Positions 2,836 to 15,424 of a stretch of DNA of 45,544 bases are shown here, piece by piece. The DNA is taken from contig JAOUFN010000022.1 of NCBI GenBank assembly GCA_029858285.1, positions 1 through 45,544 on the forward strand. The letters are read 5' to 3'. Under the pieces are notes generated by a model that searched no databases, had not been told where the DNA came from, and saw nothing but the letters and a program-made list of their open reading frames with translations. The number at the start of each line of letters is the position of its first letter. Position 1 is the stretch's first letter. This DNA comes from Nitrospirota bacterium. GTDB taxonomy: Bacteria > Nitrospirota > JACRHL01. Position numbers and translations under genes: made by a program.

Positions 2836-6150
<3,315 letters not shown>

Positions 6151-7748: not shown

Positions 7749-8318
7749 GTGGCCATCAACCTTCCCAACAGCATCACCCTGGCGCGCATCGCCCTGATCC
7801 CGGTGTTCGTGCTCCTGGCCTATGAGCCGGACCCGTGGTACGACTTCTGGGCCTCGCTGGTGTTTCTGGTGGCCGCCCTCACCGACCTGCTTGACGGCTA
7901 TCTGGCACGACGGCGTGGCGAGGTGACGCGCCTGGGCAAACTGCTGGACCCGGTGGCGGACAAACTGCTCATCCTGGCCGGGCTGGTCATGCTGGTGGAG
8001 CGTTCCCTGGTTCCGGCCTGGATCGTGATCATCATCCTGGGGCGCGAGATGGCCATTACCGGCCTGCGCGCCATGGCCGCCGCAGACGGGGTGGTGATGC
8101 CCGCCGACCGCTGGGGCAAGTGGAAGACCGTGGCCCAGGCCACCGCCGTTATCATGCTGCTGCTGGGCTGGCAACTGCCCATTTTTGGCATCAATCTGGA
8201 CGTCAGCCTGATCGGCATGGGGGTGCTGTGGGTGTCTGTGGCGCTGGCGTTGTATTCGGGCGCGCGTTACACCATTTCCTACCTGTCCGGCGCGGCGACG
8301 CGCGGCGCCGGAGCCTGA
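7749..8318 (+). CDS. pgsA: Phosphatidylglycerophosphate synthase (PgsA)
   Basis: Integral-membrane CDP-alcohol phosphatidyltransferase making phosphatidylglycerol phosphate from CDP-diacylglycerol and glycerol 3-phosphate. 189 aa from GTG, 9 nt after kdsC. The catalytic CDP-OH-P signature is complete (LDGYLARRRGEVTRLGKLLD, then PVADK). Several hydrophobic segments follow. The start MAINLPNSITLARI is typical of PgsA. Confidence 0.94.
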   Translation: MAINLPNSITLARIALIPVFVLLAYEPDPWYDFWASLVFLVAALTDLLDGYLARRRGEVTRLGKLLDPVADKLLILAGLVMLVERSLVPAWIVIIILGREMAITGLRAMAAADGVVMPADRWGKWKTVAQATAVIMLLLGWQLPIFGINLDVSLIGMGVLWVSVALALYSGARYTISYLSGAATRGAGA

Positions 8319-8442: not shown

Positions 8443-9021
8443 ATGAGTGTTATGGACATCGCCCTGGTGGTGGTGGCGTACCTGGTGGGTGCGGTGCCCT
8501 TCGGGGTGTTGGTGGCACGGATGCTTGGGATCCACGACCTGCAGTCGCGGGGCAGTGGCAACATCGGCGCCACCAACGTCAATCGCATCCTGGGCAAGAA
8601 GGCCGGAGCCATCACCCTCCTGTGCGATGTCCTGAAGGGTTTTCTGCCGGTCTGGGCGGGGCAGTTGCTGGGGGCAACCGCCGAAGTTCAGACCCTCGTG
8701 GCGGCAGCGGCGGTAGTGGGGCACATCTTCCCCATTTATCTGCGCTTCCGCGGCGGGAAGGGCGTGGCAACCGGCTTTGGAGTGGTAATGGCCCTGCATC
8801 CGCCCACGGCGATTGCGGCACTGGTGATCTGGCTGGGAACGGCCCGCATCTCCCGCGTGTCGGCGGTGGGCGCCCTGTCGGCTTATGCACTGCTGCCGTT
8901 GCTGGCCTGGGGGATGGGACCGGGAGGGTGGTTCGTGCCGTTTGTCGTTGGACTTTCGGTACTGGTGCTGGTGCGGCACACCAGCAATATTCGCCAGCTC
9001 ATTGCCGAGCGGCGGGGATAG
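8443..9021 (+). CDS. plsY: Acyl-phosphate:glycerol-3-phosphate acyltransferase (PlsY)
   Basis: Multi-pass inner-membrane enzyme that acylates glycerol 3-phosphate with acyl-phosphate, the first step of phospholipid synthesis. 192 aa. The three conserved loops are visible: SRGSGNIGATNVNR, FRGGKGVATG and the C-terminal RHTSNIRQL. GAGGTGA lies 4-10 nt before the ATG as a ribosome-binding site. A 124-nt spacer from pgsA holds only short direct repeats, so it may share the same transcript. Confidence 0.95.
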   Translation: MSVMDIALVVVAYLVGAVPFGVLVARMLGIHDLQSRGSGNIGATNVNRILGKKAGAITLLCDVLKGFLPVWAGQLLGATAEVQTLVAAAAVVGHIFPIYLRFRGGKGVATGFGVVMALHPPTAIAALVIWLGTARISRVSAVGALSAYALLPLLAWGMGPGGWFVPFVVGLSVLVLVRHTSNIRQLIAERRG

Positions 9022-9034
9022 AGAGGGTGATCGC

Positions 9035-11149
9035 GTGTCTGCCCGCGTGACAATCCACACCAACATCCGTACGACTGCCCGTATTGCCGCCCGTTTCGGG
9101 GTGGTGCCGCTTGTGGCCCTGGCCGCCCTGCTGTGGGCGGTCCCGGCGGCCGCCCAGGATGCCCAGGTGCGTCCGGTGCAGAGCGCCTGGGAGAACCTGC
9201 GCCTGGTGATGCAGGCGGATTTGTCTGCCGAGACACCCGCCGTCGGGGCGCCCGCCGTGGAACTGCCCGCCGTGGAACTGTCCGCCGTCGGGGCGCCCGC
9301 CGTGGAACTGCCCGCCGTCGGGGCGCCCGCCGTGGAACTGCCCGCCGTCGGGGCGCTTACCCCCGAACAGGCCACCGCCAATTTTTCCCGCGCTGTGGAT
9401 CAACTGATACTGGCCCGCGACGCCGAGGGCATCGCCAATCTCGAAAGCGTTGCCCTGATTCTGTCCAAGCGGGCGCGGGAGGTCATGGCCAGGGGCGCCC
9501 ACGACAAGGCCGATCTGTACGCCGGTGCCGCCATCCGAGTGGCCCCGGATTCCCCCGAGGGATATCTGGTGCGTTCCTCGGTCGATTGGGAACGCGGCCG
9601 CTATGCGCCCGCCCTGGACTGGTTTTTGAAGGGTTCTGTCACCGGTATGCACCACTATTTTGTCGGCATGGCCTGGATGGCCTATCTGGCTGTGGTGATG
9701 TGGCTGGCCGCAGCCACCGCGCTGCTGGTGCTGCTGGTGCCGGGCATCGTGCGCACCATCAAGGTGGTGGAGCACCGGGGACGCGAAGTCACGCGCTTTG
9801 GCCTGCCCTCCTGGTTGCTGGTGGCGGGCTGCCTGGCCCTGCTGGCGTTGCCGGTGGCGGCCGGGGAGGGGGTCGGCTGGGTGGTGCTGGTGTGGACCGG
9901 TTTCACCTGGCTGGGCGATTCCTCGCGGGAGCGCAAGGCGCAAATGGCCCTGCTGCTGGCCATCCTGCTGGGGCCGTTCGTGCTGTCGCCGCTGATCGCC
10001 ATGACCGCCCCGCGCGCGGGCATCGTGGGCGCGGCGCTGGCGGAGAGCGGCGGAGCGTTTCCGGCCCCCCTGTCCGTTCCCAACGGACCGCAGGCGGGCA
10101 CGACGCCGGACAACTGGCTGGTGCCGTTCGCCATGGGCAACCAGGCGCTGCGGGAATCCCGCTATGTGGACGCGGTGCATTGGTACGACGAGGCCAGACG
10201 CATGGGCGGGGATACGGTGCGCATTACCAACAACATGGGCGTAACCTATTTCCGCGCCGGTCGTGAACAGGACTCCGCAGTGCTGTTCAAACAGGCCGCC
10301 GACGTCCCCGGCGCCCCCGCCGAGGCGCTGTTCAACCTGGCCAAGGTGCAGGCCCAGAACCTCGATTTTTCCGCCCAGCGCGAGACCTTCGCCACGGCCC
10401 AACTGCGGGACCCGGAAGGCTTTGCCAGGGTAACCCGGGGCGCCGAGCCGCAGGGGGCCCGCTTCGTCTATACCCTGGGCACCACCGGCAACGAGGCGCG
10501 TCTGCTGATGGTGACCGAGACCCGCGGCTGGCACCGTTTCATGGCGCCGCTGTGGCGCAGCCTGTTCGGCCCCGTGGTGCCGCTGCTGGCGGCCCCGGCG
10601 CTGCTCCTGGTGGCGGTGCTGATGTTCATGTTCGCGCCGCGCGCGTTCGTCGGCAGCGAGGTGTACGACTGCGACGTGTGCGGGGTTTCCACCTGCCACG
10701 CATGCATGAAGTTCGGGCAGAGCATGCACCTGTGCGTGCGTTGCAGCGGCAAACTGGCGGAAACCGCCGGACGACCCGAAGACGTGACCGCCCTGAAGGG
10801 GCAGTTCAACCGTACCACCAACCGCGTGGGCAAGGTGGCCATGCTGCTCATTCCCGGCAGCCGGGAACTGGTGCAGGGGCGTTACACCATCGCCGGGGCG
10901 CACCTGTTCGTGGTCGCTTTCGGGCTGTGGTGGATCGCCCTGCTGGGCACCATCCCCAACTGGGCGCTGGGTGTCACCCTGCCCGGCTGGCCGGTGGCTC
11001 GTCTGGTGGCGGCGGCCCTGCTGCTTTTCTATCTGGCGCTGGCCTTCCTGCTGTTACGCCTGCTGGCGAAGCGCTACGAGCGCGGTCGGCACGGCCGCCC
11101 GGTGCTGGCGGCGGCAGCGGCGCAGATTTCCTCCGGCAAGGGGGAGTGA
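9035..11149 (+). CDS. Exported multi-pass TPR / zinc-ribbon membrane protein
   Basis: 704 aa from the GTG at 9035, chosen because GAGAGGG precedes it and a clean signal peptide follows (cleavage near AAAQ, residues 38-41). Order: signal peptide; PAVGAPAVEL-type repeats (68-108); helical repeat-like region; about three transmembrane segments; a TPR-like region; a further transmembrane segment; a treble CxxC knuckle (YDCDVCGVSTCHACM...CVRC) typical of zinc binding; two C-terminal transmembrane segments. I do not recognise a named family for the whole. The tight link to the DUF4388 gene suggests they work together, perhaps as an envelope sensing or scaffolding pair (inference). Confidence 0.7.
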   Translation: MSARVTIHTNIRTTARIAARFGVVPLVALAALLWAVPAAAQDAQVRPVQSAWENLRLVMQADLSAETPAVGAPAVELPAVELSAVGAPAVELPAVGAPAVELPAVGALTPEQATANFSRAVDQLILARDAEGIANLESVALILSKRAREVMARGAHDKADLYAGAAIRVAPDSPEGYLVRSSVDWERGRYAPALDWFLKGSVTGMHHYFVGMAWMAYLAVVMWLAAATALLVLLVPGIVRTIKVVEHRGREVTRFGLPSWLLVAGCLALLALPVAAGEGVGWVVLVWTGFTWLGDSSRERKAQMALLLAILLGPFVLSPLIAMTAPRAGIVGAALAESGGAFPAPLSVPNGPQAGTTPDNWLVPFAMGNQALRESRYVDAVHWYDEARRMGGDTVRITNNMGVTYFRAGREQDSAVLFKQAADVPGAPAEALFNLAKVQAQNLDFSAQRETFATAQLRDPEGFARVTRGAEPQGARFVYTLGTTGNEARLLMVTETRGWHRFMAPLWRSLFGPVVPLLAAPALLLVAVLMFMFAPRAFVGSEVYDCDVCGVSTCHACMKFGQSMHLCVRCSGKLAETAGRPEDVTALKGQFNRTTNRVGKVAMLLIPGSRELVQGRYTIAGAHLFVVAFGLWWIALLGTIPNWALGVTLPGWPVARLVAAALLLFYLALAFLLLRLLAKRYERGRHGRPVLAAAAAQISSGKGE
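9236..9358 (+). repeat. In-frame minisatellite, 15/30-bp unit
   Basis: A 30-bp unit encoding PAVGAPAVEL (with a 15-bp half unit PAVEL) is repeated about four times inside the mature N-terminus of the TPR membrane protein. Units are nearly identical at DNA level, which suggests recent slippage expansion. Confidence 0.85.
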
Positions 11150-11189
11150 TTATGTTTTTTCCGGATCGGCAGTCAGGGAGGGATACGCA

Positions 11190-12293
11190 ATGGCACTGAT
11201 CGGGTCCGTACTCGATTTCACCATCACCGACGTGCTGCAGTTGATCAAGATGCAGCGCAAGGATGGCTTGCTGGAAGTCTATTCGCGGGACGAGACGGTC
11301 ACCGTCTGGTTCCGCAACGGCAACGTGATCTGGGCCGAGAGCTCCCTCCGCCCGATGGTGCCGAGCGTGTGCAAGTGGCTGCTGCGCAAGGGCGCCCTTT
11401 CGGAGGCCCACATGTCCACCGTGCAGGTGCGCATGGAGGCGGGCGGCGTCAAGTTTGACGAGGTGCTCACCGAAGTGGCGCGGGTGCCGGAGCCGGTGTG
11501 GAAGCCGATGGTCGAGCACTATATGAAGGAGACCGTCTACGGCCTGTTCCGCTGGCTGGAGGGCGACTATACCTTCGAGACCGAGGTGGAGCTCAACATT
11601 CCGGTGGCCAGCGAGCCGAAGTCGATCAACACCGACGATGTGCTGATGGACACGGCGGTGCGCTCCGACGAGTGGCCCTATATTCAGGACCGTGTGCCGT
11701 CGCTGGTCATCGTGTATGGCCGCAAGGCCGACGCCAGGCTGGCGGACGACGCCAACGAGGAAGAGCGTTATGTGTTTGGCCGCATCAACGGCGAACAGAA
11801 CGTGGAAACCATCGTCGACAGCAGTCCGCACGGCGCCTTTCAGACCCTCAGGGCCATGGCCAACCTGGTGGAAAAGGGGATGCTGGACAACCTTGGCGAG
11901 CACGACCCGCGCGCCGAGGCCCGTGCCCAGGAGCGAGAGGAGGCCGTCCGGAAGGAACAACTGGGAAAACCCGAGCGCCCGGGTAACCCGGGCCGTGCGC
12001 AATCCACCGGACTGGCCCTGCTGTGCGCCTCTCTGGTGCTGGGCTGCGGCTGGCTGTTCTACGCCCAGGCCGCCGAACCGCCCCGCGACCTGTCCTCGGG
12101 CTTTATCGAGTCCATGGCCACCTACAAGGAATACAAGGTGCGCCAGGCCATTTCGTCCTACCGCCTGCTGCATGGGGGGTTTCCGGATTCCCTGTCGGCG
12201 CTCCAGGCTCAGGGGTATCTGCCGGAGTCCATGGATTTTGGCGGTCTGACCTATGAACTGGAAGAAAACGGCTTTTCTCTTCACGCGGGATAA
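11190..12293 (+). CDS. DUF4388 (PATAN) protein with pseudopilin-like C-terminal domain
   Basis: 367 aa. The N-terminal 90 or so residues fit the DUF4388/PATAN family (GSVLDFTITDVLQLIKMQRKDGLLEV...GNVIWAES), known from response-regulator fusions and gliding or type IV pilus control. A second winged-helix-like region follows (to about 240), then a charged linker (about 243-272), one transmembrane segment (about 276-292) and an outside domain. That domain's pattern (AISSYRLLHGGFPDSLSALQAQGYL) recalls the globular part of GspG-type pseudopilins. A cytosolic PATAN module joined through the membrane to a pilin-like domain is unusual. Start: ATG with AGGGAGGG upstream. Confidence 0.72.
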   Translation: MALIGSVLDFTITDVLQLIKMQRKDGLLEVYSRDETVTVWFRNGNVIWAESSLRPMVPSVCKWLLRKGALSEAHMSTVQVRMEAGGVKFDEVLTEVARVPEPVWKPMVEHYMKETVYGLFRWLEGDYTFETEVELNIPVASEPKSINTDDVLMDTAVRSDEWPYIQDRVPSLVIVYGRKADARLADDANEEERYVFGRINGEQNVETIVDSSPHGAFQTLRAMANLVEKGMLDNLGEHDPRAEARAQEREEAVRKEQLGKPERPGNPGRAQSTGLALLCASLVLGCGWLFYAQAAEPPRDLSSGFIESMATYKEYKVRQAISSYRLLHGGFPDSLSALQAQGYLPESMDFGGLTYELEENGFSLHAG

Positions 12294-12415: not shown

Positions 12416-12922
12416 ATGTCGATGATCCGTTTTTCTGCCTTTACCCCCAAAGACCTGGAAACCGTCCGGGACTGGGAGGCCGCAGGGGACAACCCCGGCG
12501 CCGAGCTCGCCGAAAAATACCGCGTCCTGGTGAAGGACAATTTTGGCAAGCTGATGAGCACCATGATCGGCGAGATCGCCCGCTTTTTCGACATCACCAT
12601 CAAGCGCAAGCTCGACTGGGAGTCGTTTTACGGCTGGACCTTCTCGTATCACAACGACTTTGTCTGCTGGTACGGCATCTCCTACCGTTCCGACCGTTTC
12701 CTGCACTCCTGCTTTGGCGTGAAGTGGGACGACGCTCACAGCGGAACGTTGCAGCGCCTCCTCGACGACGAGGGGTATCGCAAGGTGGTCATGCCCCGCG
12801 ACAACGCCGAGTGGGTGGTGAAGGAGTTCCCCATGGAGGTGTTCGGCATCGCCGGGGACGAGGAGCAGATGACCACCTTCTCCAAGGTTGCCGAAGACCA
12901 GCTCGACCTGCTGGAGGGGTAA
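12416..12922 (+). CDS. Conserved-looking hypothetical protein, 168 aa
   Basis: I do not recognise this protein. The ATG at 12416 has CAGGAG 8 nt upstream, and ATG at 12422 is an alternative. It is predicted soluble, acidic and rich in aromatic residues in its centre (FYGWTFSYHNDFVCWYGISYRSDRF), with no signal peptide, membrane helix or known catalytic motif that I can see. It stands alone, 122 nt after the DUF4388 gene and 80 nt before a divergent-function regulator. Codon use matches its neighbours, so it is probably native. Confidence 0.7.
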   Translation: MSMIRFSAFTPKDLETVRDWEAAGDNPGAELAEKYRVLVKDNFGKLMSTMIGEIARFFDITIKRKLDWESFYGWTFSYHNDFVCWYGISYRSDRFLHSCFGVKWDDAHSGTLQRLLDDEGYRKVVMPRDNAEWVVKEFPMEVFGIAGDEEQMTTFSKVAEDQLDLLEG

Positions 12923-13713: not shown

Positions 13714-14490
13714 TTGAATCCGCACGCCGACCTCGATCTTGCCACCCGTGCCGCCCACAAGGCCGGGGAGATCATCATGCGCTACTACAAGGAAGACTAC
13801 GAGGTGCGCGAGAAGGGCGTCGGCAACCCGGTGACGGATGCGGACGTGGAGGCCGACGGCATGCTGCGGGAGACTCTTTTGGGGGAGTGTCCGGAGGACG
13901 GCTGGCTGTCCGAGGAGACCAAGGACAATGCCGACCGCCTGTCGTGCCGTCGGGTGTGGATTGTGGACCCCATCGACGGCACCAAGGAGTTCATCAAGGG
14001 GGTGCCCCAGTTCGCCGTGTCCATCGCATTGGCGGTGGAGGGGGAAATCGCCCTGGGGGTGATCTTCAACCCGGCCAGACAAGAGATGTACACCGCCGTG
14101 CGCGGCCAGGGGGTGATGCTGAACGGCAAGAAAGTCGGCGTGACGGCGTGCGACTCCCTGGCGGAGGCCAACATTCTGGCCAGCCGCTCCGAGGTGGCGC
14201 GCGGAGAGTTCGACCGCTTCAAGGACTATCACATCACGCCGATTGGCAGCATTGCCTACAAACTGGCGCTGATCGGCGCCGGGCTGGCAGATTTGACCTT
14301 TACCCTTACCCCCAAGAACGAGTGGGATTTTGCCGCCGGTTCCCTGCTGGTGACGGAAGGCGGCGGGCGGGTGCAGGTGCTGGGGGATCACCCCCAGACC
14401 TTCAACGGCCCGGACCCGCTGGTGGAGGGGGTGGTGGCGACCAACCGCGCCCTGTTCGGGCAGGTGATGGAACTGATCGGCAAGGCCTGA
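13714..14490 (+). CDS. cysQ: 3'(2'),5'-bisphosphate nucleotidase (CysQ)
   Basis: Removes the 3'-phosphate of PAP/PAPS, recycling the by-product of sulfate activation. 258 aa from the TTG at 13714, chosen for AAGGA about 9 nt upstream and a typical CysQ N-terminus. Mg-dependent phosphatase motifs are present: EET for metal binding (WLSEET), DPIDGTKEF, and WDFAAGSLLVTEGGG. A Li-sensitive IMPase-fold protein of normal length. The spacing from the regulator (96 nt) allows either an operon or its own promoter. It converges with abiF, 19 nt apart. Confidence 0.92.
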   Translation: MNPHADLDLATRAAHKAGEIIMRYYKEDYEVREKGVGNPVTDADVEADGMLRETLLGECPEDGWLSEETKDNADRLSCRRVWIVDPIDGTKEFIKGVPQFAVSIALAVEGEIALGVIFNPARQEMYTAVRGQGVMLNGKKVGVTACDSLAEANILASRSEVARGEFDRFKDYHITPIGSIAYKLALIGAGLADLTFTLTPKNEWDFAAGSLLVTEGGGRVQVLGDHPQTFNGPDPLVEGVVATNRALFGQVMELIGKA

Positions 14491-14509
14491 CGGGCGGGGA
14501 GCGGGGAGT

Positions 14510-15424
14510 TTACAGGGTCCTGTCCCGCCAGATTTCCCGCTGCTCCCAGTTCGGCGGGAAGCCCATTTCTGCCGCCGGAATATTGTCTTGGCGAATGAGA
14601 TCCCTCAGCCGCGCACGCCAGTGGTGGCGGGGGGCGATCACGTCCATGCAGTGCAGCAGGATCACGAGGGTGTTGTAGAGCTTGTTGGGCTGGCCGGGAT
14701 GAAACTGCCCCGCTAATTCCTGCGGTTTGTTGTGTGGCAGCTGTGCCTTGATCGTGAACCCCCGATTCCACAACCGGCTGTGGTGGGCGCAAGTGTTGCG
14801 CACCAGCGAAAGGTGCTTCAGCCAAGACTCAAGCATCTGTTCGTCCACGGCGTAGACCGCTGCAATGGCCTTGCGGGTGGGCATGGGCTTGAGGTTGGAG
14901 TACCAGCGCGACAGCAGGCCCAGCGACATGACTTCGCACACGGCCCACACCGGGGGCAGTTCCTCGCTGTAGGTAGCGAGCAGGTGGAGGATGAACGTTT
15001 CACTGGAACGATTGACTTCCTTGTTCAGTTGGGCGCGATTCTCTTGCCAGTATTGGCCGTCGCTTGCGAGATTTTCGTCAAGGTGGGCGTGCGGGCCGTG
15101 CCGGTGCGCCATCTGGTAGGCCCATTGGCCGCGTATCGAGACTTCGATGCGCTCAATGGTGTCCAGTACCAGAAGCCGCAGTTCGCGGTCGAACACGTAG
15201 AGGTTCAGTACCTCGGAAAATCGGGCGCCATTCCGGAAAATGTGCGTGGTGTTGTCAATCTGGAAGTGACGCCAGTAGGCGCTGAGGCGGTAGTAGTTGA
15301 TGTGCTGGAGGTAGAACGCGGTCTCTGCGGGATCGTCAACGACCAAGCCACGCTCGCGGAGCAATTCGACCTGTTGGAGGTAGGTGGTGGCGGGCTTGGT
15401 GAAGGGGCGTTTCGTGTCCATCAC
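14510..15424 (-). CDS. AbiF/AbiD-type abortive-infection HEPN protein (Abi_2 family)
   Basis: 304 aa from GTG at 15424 (303 from the adjacent ATG at 15421). Abi_2 family signatures are KPATTYLQQVELLRERGL, HINYYRLSAYW, FDRELRLLVLDTIERIEVSIR and RNTCAHHSRLWNR. The last gives a HEPN ribonuclease motif R-x4-H at Arg209-His214. The gene is visibly lower in G+C than the flanking genes, a sign of transfer. It starts 5-8 nt after the U-run of an upstream terminator-like hairpin with its own promoter and has no Shine-Dalgarno. Likely an RNA-cleaving phage-defence toxin controlled by that RNA (inference from family knowledge). Confidence 0.88.
   Translation of the reverse strand: MMDTKRPFTKPATTYLQQVELLRERGLVVDDPAETAFYLQHINYYRLSAYWRHFQIDNTTHIFRNGARFSEVLNLYVFDRELRLLVLDTIERIEVSIRGQWAYQMAHRHGPHAHLDENLASDGQYWQENRAQLNKEVNRSSETFILHLLATYSEELPPVWAVCEVMSLGLLSRWYSNLKPMPTRKAIAAVYAVDEQMLESWLKHLSLVRNTCAHHSRLWNRGFTIKAQLPHNKPQELAGQFHPGQPNKLYNTLVILLHCMDVIAPRHHWRARLRDLIRQDNIPAAEMGFPPNWEQREIWRDRTL

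Follow-up and report, generated by a model that had tools for sequence, protein, structure and literature searches.

A gene pair of Nitrospirota and Acidobacteriota that combines PATAN, MshEN and pseudopilin-like domains, a predicted cyclic di-GMP effector

We analysed positions 1 to 45,544 of contig JAOUFN010000022.1 from a Nitrospirota bacterium (assembly GCA_029858285.1, genome size 2.56 Mb); this whole stretch of 45,544 nucleotides is referred to here as the window. Two adjoining forward-strand genes in it, which we call A and B, encode, respectively, a membrane protein with tetratricopeptide repeats (TPRs) and a Cys knuckle, and a protein in which a PATAN (DUF4388) domain is joined through a single transmembrane (TM) helix to a domain resembling GspG, a pseudopilin of the type II secretion system (T2SS). 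The intergenic gap is 40 nt, as an earlier sequence-only reading of the window had given it. With slightly less than even confidence, we read A and B as a two-protein signalling or assembly module of the inner membrane, gated by cyclic di-GMP (c-di-GMP) in most relatives and remodelled in this genome. The domains, the linkage of the two genes and the presence and loss of ligand motifs are read from sequence, and the features of the pair are as follows:

9035..11149, forward strand: gene A (open reading frame (ORF), GTG start), a 704-residue TPR, multi-membrane-helix and Cys-knuckle protein
9035..9154, forward strand: signal peptide of A, residues 1–40, with a signal-peptidase-I-like site AAA/Q (hydrophobic stretch 21–39; site placed by eye)
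10016..10450, forward strand: TPR solenoid of A, residues 328–472, predicted periplasmic (AlphaFold2 (AF2) model, VIA and Pfam)
10670..10744, forward strand: Cys knuckle of A, residues 546–570, CxxC-x4-CxxC-x9-CxxC, predicted cytosolic (Cys conservation)
11190..12293, forward strand: gene B (ORF, ATG start), a 367-residue PATAN, winged-helix, TM and pseudopilin-like protein
11202..11675, forward strand: PATAN (DUF4388) domain of B, residues 5–162 (Pfam PF14332, E 5.9e-20)
11364..11522, forward strand: site of the 53-residue MshEN c-di-GMP motif of B, residues 59–111, degenerate in this copy (motif scoring)
11676..11900, forward strand: winged helix of B, residues 163–237 (VIA match to 9v0j_A)
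12009..12065, forward strand: single membrane helix of B, residues 274–292 (hydropathy 1.89; model helix 271–294)
12090..12290, forward strand: GspG/pseudopilin-like domain of B, residues 301–367, without calcium loop (AF2 model, VIA and family-level T2SSG/GspG matches)

Conservation of the gene pair

Public species genomes were scanned with twelve Nitrospirota B proteins, yielding 302 pattern matches; 259 relatives were confirmed, and the 80 that ranked highest by B similarity constitute the public loci discussed below. Counted by hand from their titles, 40 of these are Nitrospirota, 37 Acidobacteriota (a phylum to which we take the classes Holophagae and Thermoanaerobaculia to belong) and 3 other or unassigned. 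A homologue of A, either complete or truncated where a contig ends, lies upstream of B on the same strand in 80/80 loci; seven of the A ORFs are shorter than 500 residues, several of them at contig ends. The gap between A and B has a median of 2 nt and is 33 nt or less in 76/80 loci, the remaining gaps being 72, 89, 134 and 372 nt; the 89-nt gap belongs to L144, where the start of B is mis-called, and the 372-nt gap to L122, where the A ORF is split. As all 80 loci keep the pair, we rejected chance neighbourhood as its explanation, and the co-occurrence that the sequence-only reading had proposed to check by gene neighbourhood is borne out.

In 60 relatives, B and A matches are adjacent with their order kept. 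Out of 28 regions fetched from relatives, simple phmmer searches recovered A together with B in 22, and in three further regions (L086, L087 and L088) A was recognised from ORF reading and the family profile; L084 and L085 come from a single genome, on separate contigs, and L089 contains a PATAN paralogue, with no A found there. Across the phylum, the A profile matched 49/148 genomes at E ≤ 1e-20, with two of the 49 (G051 and G078) matching through the TPRs only and one (G009) partially. The pair is thus conserved together in two bacterial phyla. One public locus, that of Acanthopleuribacter pedis (L110), contains a second B-like ORF (3003–3902) and a second A-like ORF (13776–15200), the latter running to the end of the stretch.

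Domains and candidate ligand motifs

Protein A was aligned with 70 of its relatives (alignment A6, which omits L115, L122 and L136 from the 73 A proteins of at least 500 residues). The AF2 model built from these 71 sequences has a mean predicted local distance difference test score (pLDDT) of 81.5 and a predicted TM-score (pTM) of 0.79, and VIA matched its solenoid to the TPRs of OGT (Z 14.5, root-mean-square deviation (rmsd) 2.6, 132 residues aligned). The TPRs of the window copy are weak, with every Pfam TPR match falling under the Pfam cut-offs; at E ≤ 1, TPR_2 was matched in 20/20 aligned A proteins, the window copy among them. Hydropathy finds the signal peptide and six membrane helices, and a seventh helix, at about residues 278–294, is suggested by a conserved stretch seen by eye in the alignment. 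The signal peptide, TPRs, six or so helices and CxxC knuckle that had been noticed in A from sequence alone have therefore all held up. With the signal peptide cleaved and seven helices in the membrane, the TPRs would face the periplasm, and the Cys knuckle and the C-terminus would be cytosolic; under this predicted topology loops 236–256 and 675–704, the most basic of the protein, also fall on the cytosolic side. Cys 546, 549, 567 and 570 are invariant in 71/71 aligned A proteins, while Cys 554 and 557 of the middle CxxC are kept in 63/71, His247 in 65/71 and Glu251 in 64/71, and the knuckle is a candidate metal-binding site. Gene A also carries a 30-bp tandem repeat (9250–9356, 3.6 copies, 92% matches), encoding a Pro/Ala/Val/Glu-rich 10-residue unit; the remaining 19 A proteins in alignment A1 are gapped at this place.

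For protein B we used alignment A5, composed of 74 B proteins and the window copy (L108, L133, L144, L147, L164 and L168 are omitted). DUF4388 is the sole Pfam match in window B, at 72 bits against a Pfam cut-off of 25, and is present at E ≤ 0.001 in 75/75 members of A5. In the AF2 model (75 sequences, mean pLDDT 89.4), PATAN strands with a four-helix run (56–119) are followed by the winged helix (163–237), a helix at 240–258, the membrane helix and a C-terminus in which a long helix (301–328) precedes a short one and a hairpin of two strands, with block-mean pLDDT of 92–97 from residue 311. The winged helix was matched by VIA to chain 9v0j_A of the GATOR1-KICSTOR complex (Z 9.1, rmsd 2.6, 72 residues aligned), and the charge around the TM helix favours an N-in orientation in the window copy. 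B has its PATAN domain in common with the cyanobacterial proteins PixE, PixG and LsiR; these are PATAN-CheY proteins, whereas B has no receiver match and has a TM helix and a pilin-like domain instead.

The four-helix part of PATAN is where a c-di-GMP site is predicted. The MshEN (GSPII) domain of MshE, PilB and PilF is defined in PMC5013675 by a pair of 24-residue motifs set 5 residues apart, and B relatives share this motif pair and spacer. Scored at 11 positions per motif (maximum 22 in total), the public B ORFs reached 18–22 of 22 in 80/80 cases; the maximum over 4000 shuffles was 15, and a chance pattern was rejected on these grounds. L144, which reaches 10+10 over its whole ORF, scores 10+2 from its mis-called start. 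The NCBIfam MshE-related c-di-GMP model NF053729 was matched at E ≤ 0.001 by 74/75 members of A5 and at E ≤ 1 by 21/25 aligned B proteins of the phylum, and the B profile A5 matched MshE 5HTL with E 3.6e-11 over profile positions 55–119. In most relatives B would bind c-di-GMP through the MshEN repeat. The setting differs from that in MshE, PilB and PilF: the repeat is located inside the PATAN domain of a membrane-anchored pseudopilin-like protein and not on an ATPase.

The single miss among the 75 is window B itself, where the best score is 7+4 of 11+11, RLG and both Gln are gone and NF053729 is not matched; three members of its family score 6+5, 4+6 and 7+4. Since the motif is near-universal in the relatives examined and degenerate here, the site appears to have been lost in window B. 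As for c-di-GMP itself, GGDEF was found in 61/61 genomes, with 10 matches in the window's own genome. The other PATAN protein of that genome (L002, 1501–2193 of C29) keeps the MshEN motif at 11+9. Among further DUF4388 proteins, the MshEN-like pair is clear in L019 and weak in L027 and L029, and no such pair was seen in L022–L024 and L030; the helices of PATAN may frequently form a c-di-GMP domain.

The pseudopilin-like C-terminus is recognised through the family. T2SSG was matched at E ≤ 0.001 by 41/75 members of A5 and at E ≤ 1 by 18/25 aligned B proteins of the phylum. The B profile A3 found the GspG chains 5WDA (1.1e-5) and 2KEP (5e-5); the wider profile A5 was weaker, with 2KEP at 0.0015, and the C-terminus of the L090 B protein alone found 2KEP at 4.4e-5. 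Window B had no T2SSG match in the Pfam scan, and its C-terminus alone no match among PDB sequences at E ≤ 10. These window-only searches are empty, as was Foldseek with the whole B model at E ≤ 0.001, but the family profile matches GspG chains, and we therefore do not regard the pilin claim as refuted. No MshEN or GspG chain was among the 50 VIA matches listed for B, which does not exclude them. The claim made from sequence alone, DUF4388 plus one membrane helix plus a pseudopilin-like domain, thus stands in its first two parts; GspG-like identity is supported for the B family, and for the window copy through homology and the model, not through its own sequence alone.

B shares with GspG (PulG/EpsG) the TM helix and the C-terminal helix and hairpin, and differs in its large cytosolic N-terminus. 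No prepilin-peptidase cleavage motif was seen before the TM helix of window B, for which reason we rejected B as an ordinary pseudopilin. Many B relatives share a further GspG trait. The consensus GxDGxx[GN][TN]xDD is the calcium-coordinating loop of pseudopilin 3G20, as given in PMC3396595. Among the 80 public B proteins it is strict in 23, relaxed in 14 and absent in 43, and the strict form occurred in 0/16000 shuffles. The motif is absent from window B (by eye) and, unlike in GspG, from the Acidobacteriota-titled loci.

Phospholipid genes and other neighbours

Immediately upstream of A, the window contains two genes of phospholipid synthesis:

8443..9021, forward strand: plsY, 13 nt 5' of A (Pfam PF02660, E 4e-50)
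7749..8318, forward strand: pgsA-like CDP-alcohol phosphatidyltransferase gene, the next gene upstream of plsY (Pfam PF01066, E 2.5e-44)

The linkage to plsY is a Nitrospirota trait. plsY lies near A in 32/40 Nitrospirota-titled loci and in 0/40 of the others; six of the eight Nitrospirota-titled loci without it are at contig ends by their coordinates, and no plsY was found within the fetched stretch of L108 and L121. These 32 loci have the calcium motif in strict form in 20 cases, in relaxed form in 8 and not at all in 4. In a set of 30 Nitrospirota loci, most of which come from genomes already represented among the earlier relatives, plsY is directly 5' of A in 28, and in seven (L175, L178, L180, L183, L186, L192 and L194; six f8 genomes and one f15 genome) PlsY and A form one ORF. 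The six f8 fusions probably represent one event, and those of f8 and f15 may represent two. The fused copy is the only PF02660 match in each of the seven genomes, four of which are 98–100% complete and three 71–85%; the fusions, in which the internal linker resembles a signal peptide, are possible natural polyproteins around an enzyme for which no second copy was found. No description of a fusion of this type was found in the literature searched. Two pair-carrying f6 genomes, G017 and G025 (92% and 89% complete), lack a PF02660 match, and in G017 a pgsA-like ORF overlaps the start of the A ORF.

It is against this background that a role in lipid synthesis has to be considered, namely that the pair controls phospholipid synthesis, or serves as a scaffold for it, by acting on PlsY (and PgsA) in the same membrane, so that lipid supply would track c-di-GMP or the state of the envelope. 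The position of plsY, the fusions and their status as sole PF02660 matches speak for such a link, as does a pgsA-like homologue upstream in 35/40 Nitrospirota-titled loci. Outside Nitrospirota the association breaks down: window PlsY (phmmer, E ≤ 1e-5) is unmatched in the fetched stretches of all 37 Acidobacteriota-titled loci, where A and B are without plsY nearby. Moreover, the PlsY-A linkers carry signal-peptidase-like AxA sites (by eye), at which the fused product may be split into PlsY and A; the fusion shows co-translation rather than lasting attachment, and housekeeping operons can stay conserved without a functional link. We consider this explanation improbable.

A second possibility is suggested by the neighbours outside Nitrospirota, which are not lipid genes: a DUF1844 gene is located upstream in 16 loci (15 of them Acidobacteriota-titled), and dnaK 27–167 nt downstream in 14 (13 Acidobacteriota-titled). 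This would suit a LapD-like relay, in which cytosolic c-di-GMP acts via the periplasmic domain of B on a separate target, located in the periplasm or outer membrane and bound by the TPRs of A. While the domain order and predicted topology suit such an inside-to-outside receptor, no target gene common to both phyla was found among the scanned clusters; we think this relay rather unlikely.

Two other features lie 3' of the pair: a 168-residue ORF at 12416–12922, just 3' of B, for which Pfam gave nothing at E ≤ 1, and, on the reverse strand, an abortive-infection-like gene at 14510–15424 (Abi_2, PF07751, E 2.7e-56).

A candidate inner-membrane module

The reading that we favour, a c-di-GMP-gated module of the inner membrane, would work as follows. 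The N-terminus of B (PATAN with its internal MshEN repeat, and the winged helix) would be cytosolic, with one helix leading to a periplasmic GspG-like domain, and A would be anchored by several helices, its TPR solenoid in the periplasm and its Cys knuckle in the cytosol. In most relatives, c-di-GMP on the MshEN repeat would alter the contact of the B head with A or another cytosolic partner, a change relayed to the pseudopilin domain, which would dock on the TPRs of A or on periplasmic pilin-type subunits and so control envelope assembly or export. We infer the A–B complex, ligand binding, topology, output and passage of the signal to the pseudopilin domain from the features described above. 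In the family of the window copy the ligand site is degenerate, and the copy itself is without the calcium loop; window B may accordingly be constitutive, controlled by a protein or decaying.

Several observations weigh against this proposal. The ligand part, as written, does not apply to the window copy, which lacks both ligand motifs, and in L088, of a different family, B scores 9+2, its second motif not being intact. The C-terminus (270–367) was matched by VIA to the type IV pilin PilA4 (Z 6.7, 90 residues aligned), but at a high rmsd of 8.2. Whole-model Foldseek of B found nothing at E ≤ 0.001. A prepilin-like pattern was seen in 1/80 public B proteins, that of L161, where it precedes the TM helix by some ten residues, and the charge bias across the family is unclear as to N-in (33/80 for, 21 ties, 26 against). 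Finally, PilM occurs almost throughout the phylum, including genomes in which no pair was found, and none of 20 Pfam-scanned representatives from the 40 commonest neighbour clusters is a type IV pilus (T4P) or T2SS protein, the remaining clusters having been viewed as sequence starts only.

Because of this absence, a pilus role can be proposed for the pair only by inference. A link to T2SS machinery or to lipid synthesis is likewise a proposal. PilM matched at E ≤ 1e-40 in 25/27 pair-carrying genomes, with weaker matches in the other two (G029 and G053, 79% and 81% complete), and the eight genomes of family f10 have neither strong PilM nor the pair. Strong PilM is also present in families f5, f7, f9 and f11, where initial searches found no pair, and we therefore rejected co-occurrence as proof; the distribution fits a pilus connection without showing it.

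A related alternative is that the pair is an accessory of T4P or T2SS assembly, its PATAN/MshEN head binding the motor ATPase and its tethered, uncleaved pseudopilin domain priming or capping the pseudopilus. Every part of B is related to that machinery (MshEN of MshE, PilB and PilF; GspG; PATAN regulators). A review (PMC7690835) and a discussion (PMC9090330) report that, in Synechocystis, the motor PilB1 is bound by PATAN response regulators. In Myxococcus xanthus, two PATAN proteins and one TPR protein are among ten that co-occur with the T4aP regulator SgmX, of which SopA alone is followed up there (PMC11580455). The counterarguments are those just given, 0/20 neighbour representatives being pil or gsp and PilM occurring in genomes without a recognised pair as well, together with the lack of a cleavage motif at the TM helix of B. 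An accessory role of this kind is unlikely, though not without weight. A trans-envelope sensor or pilus-related assembly, as the sequence-only reading put it, nevertheless stays the best class of reading; since the pairing is real and the pilin-like C-terminus is supported via relatives and model, neither outcome that it had named as speaking against it, no pilin fold or no co-occurrence, was found. Added to it here are the MshEN motif and its loss in the window copy, the calcium motif of many relatives, the association with plsY and the fusion of PlsY to A.

A bolder version of the module, which we regard as doubtful, is a trans-envelope device in which B reads both cytosolic c-di-GMP and, through its uncleaved pseudopilin domain, periplasmic calcium, with A as a dedicated partner and with coupling to PlsY, a single signal then governing lipid synthesis as well as the assembly of envelope or pilus; the lineage of the window would have been rewired to do without either ligand.

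Each of the domains is known. The combination of PATAN-MshEN, winged helix, TM helix and GspG-like domain with a TPR/Cys-knuckle partner was not found described in the literature searched, a search mostly outside subscription journals. Where the PATAN literature searched names MshEN, it appears as a domain of PilB with PATAN in other proteins, or in reference lists only. The pair is thus a predicted c-di-GMP effector that is related by its domains to T4P and T2SS proteins. If the prediction is true, it would represent a type of c-di-GMP effector that crosses the inner membrane by a pilin-like domain, in two phyla poor in model organisms, and would provide a testable ligand for DUF4388 proteins of the B type. 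Given the gene pair, the motif and natural copies that have lost it, the proposal can be tested directly; the PlsY fusions point to a possible connection of c-di-GMP signalling with phospholipid synthesis that can be tested as well.

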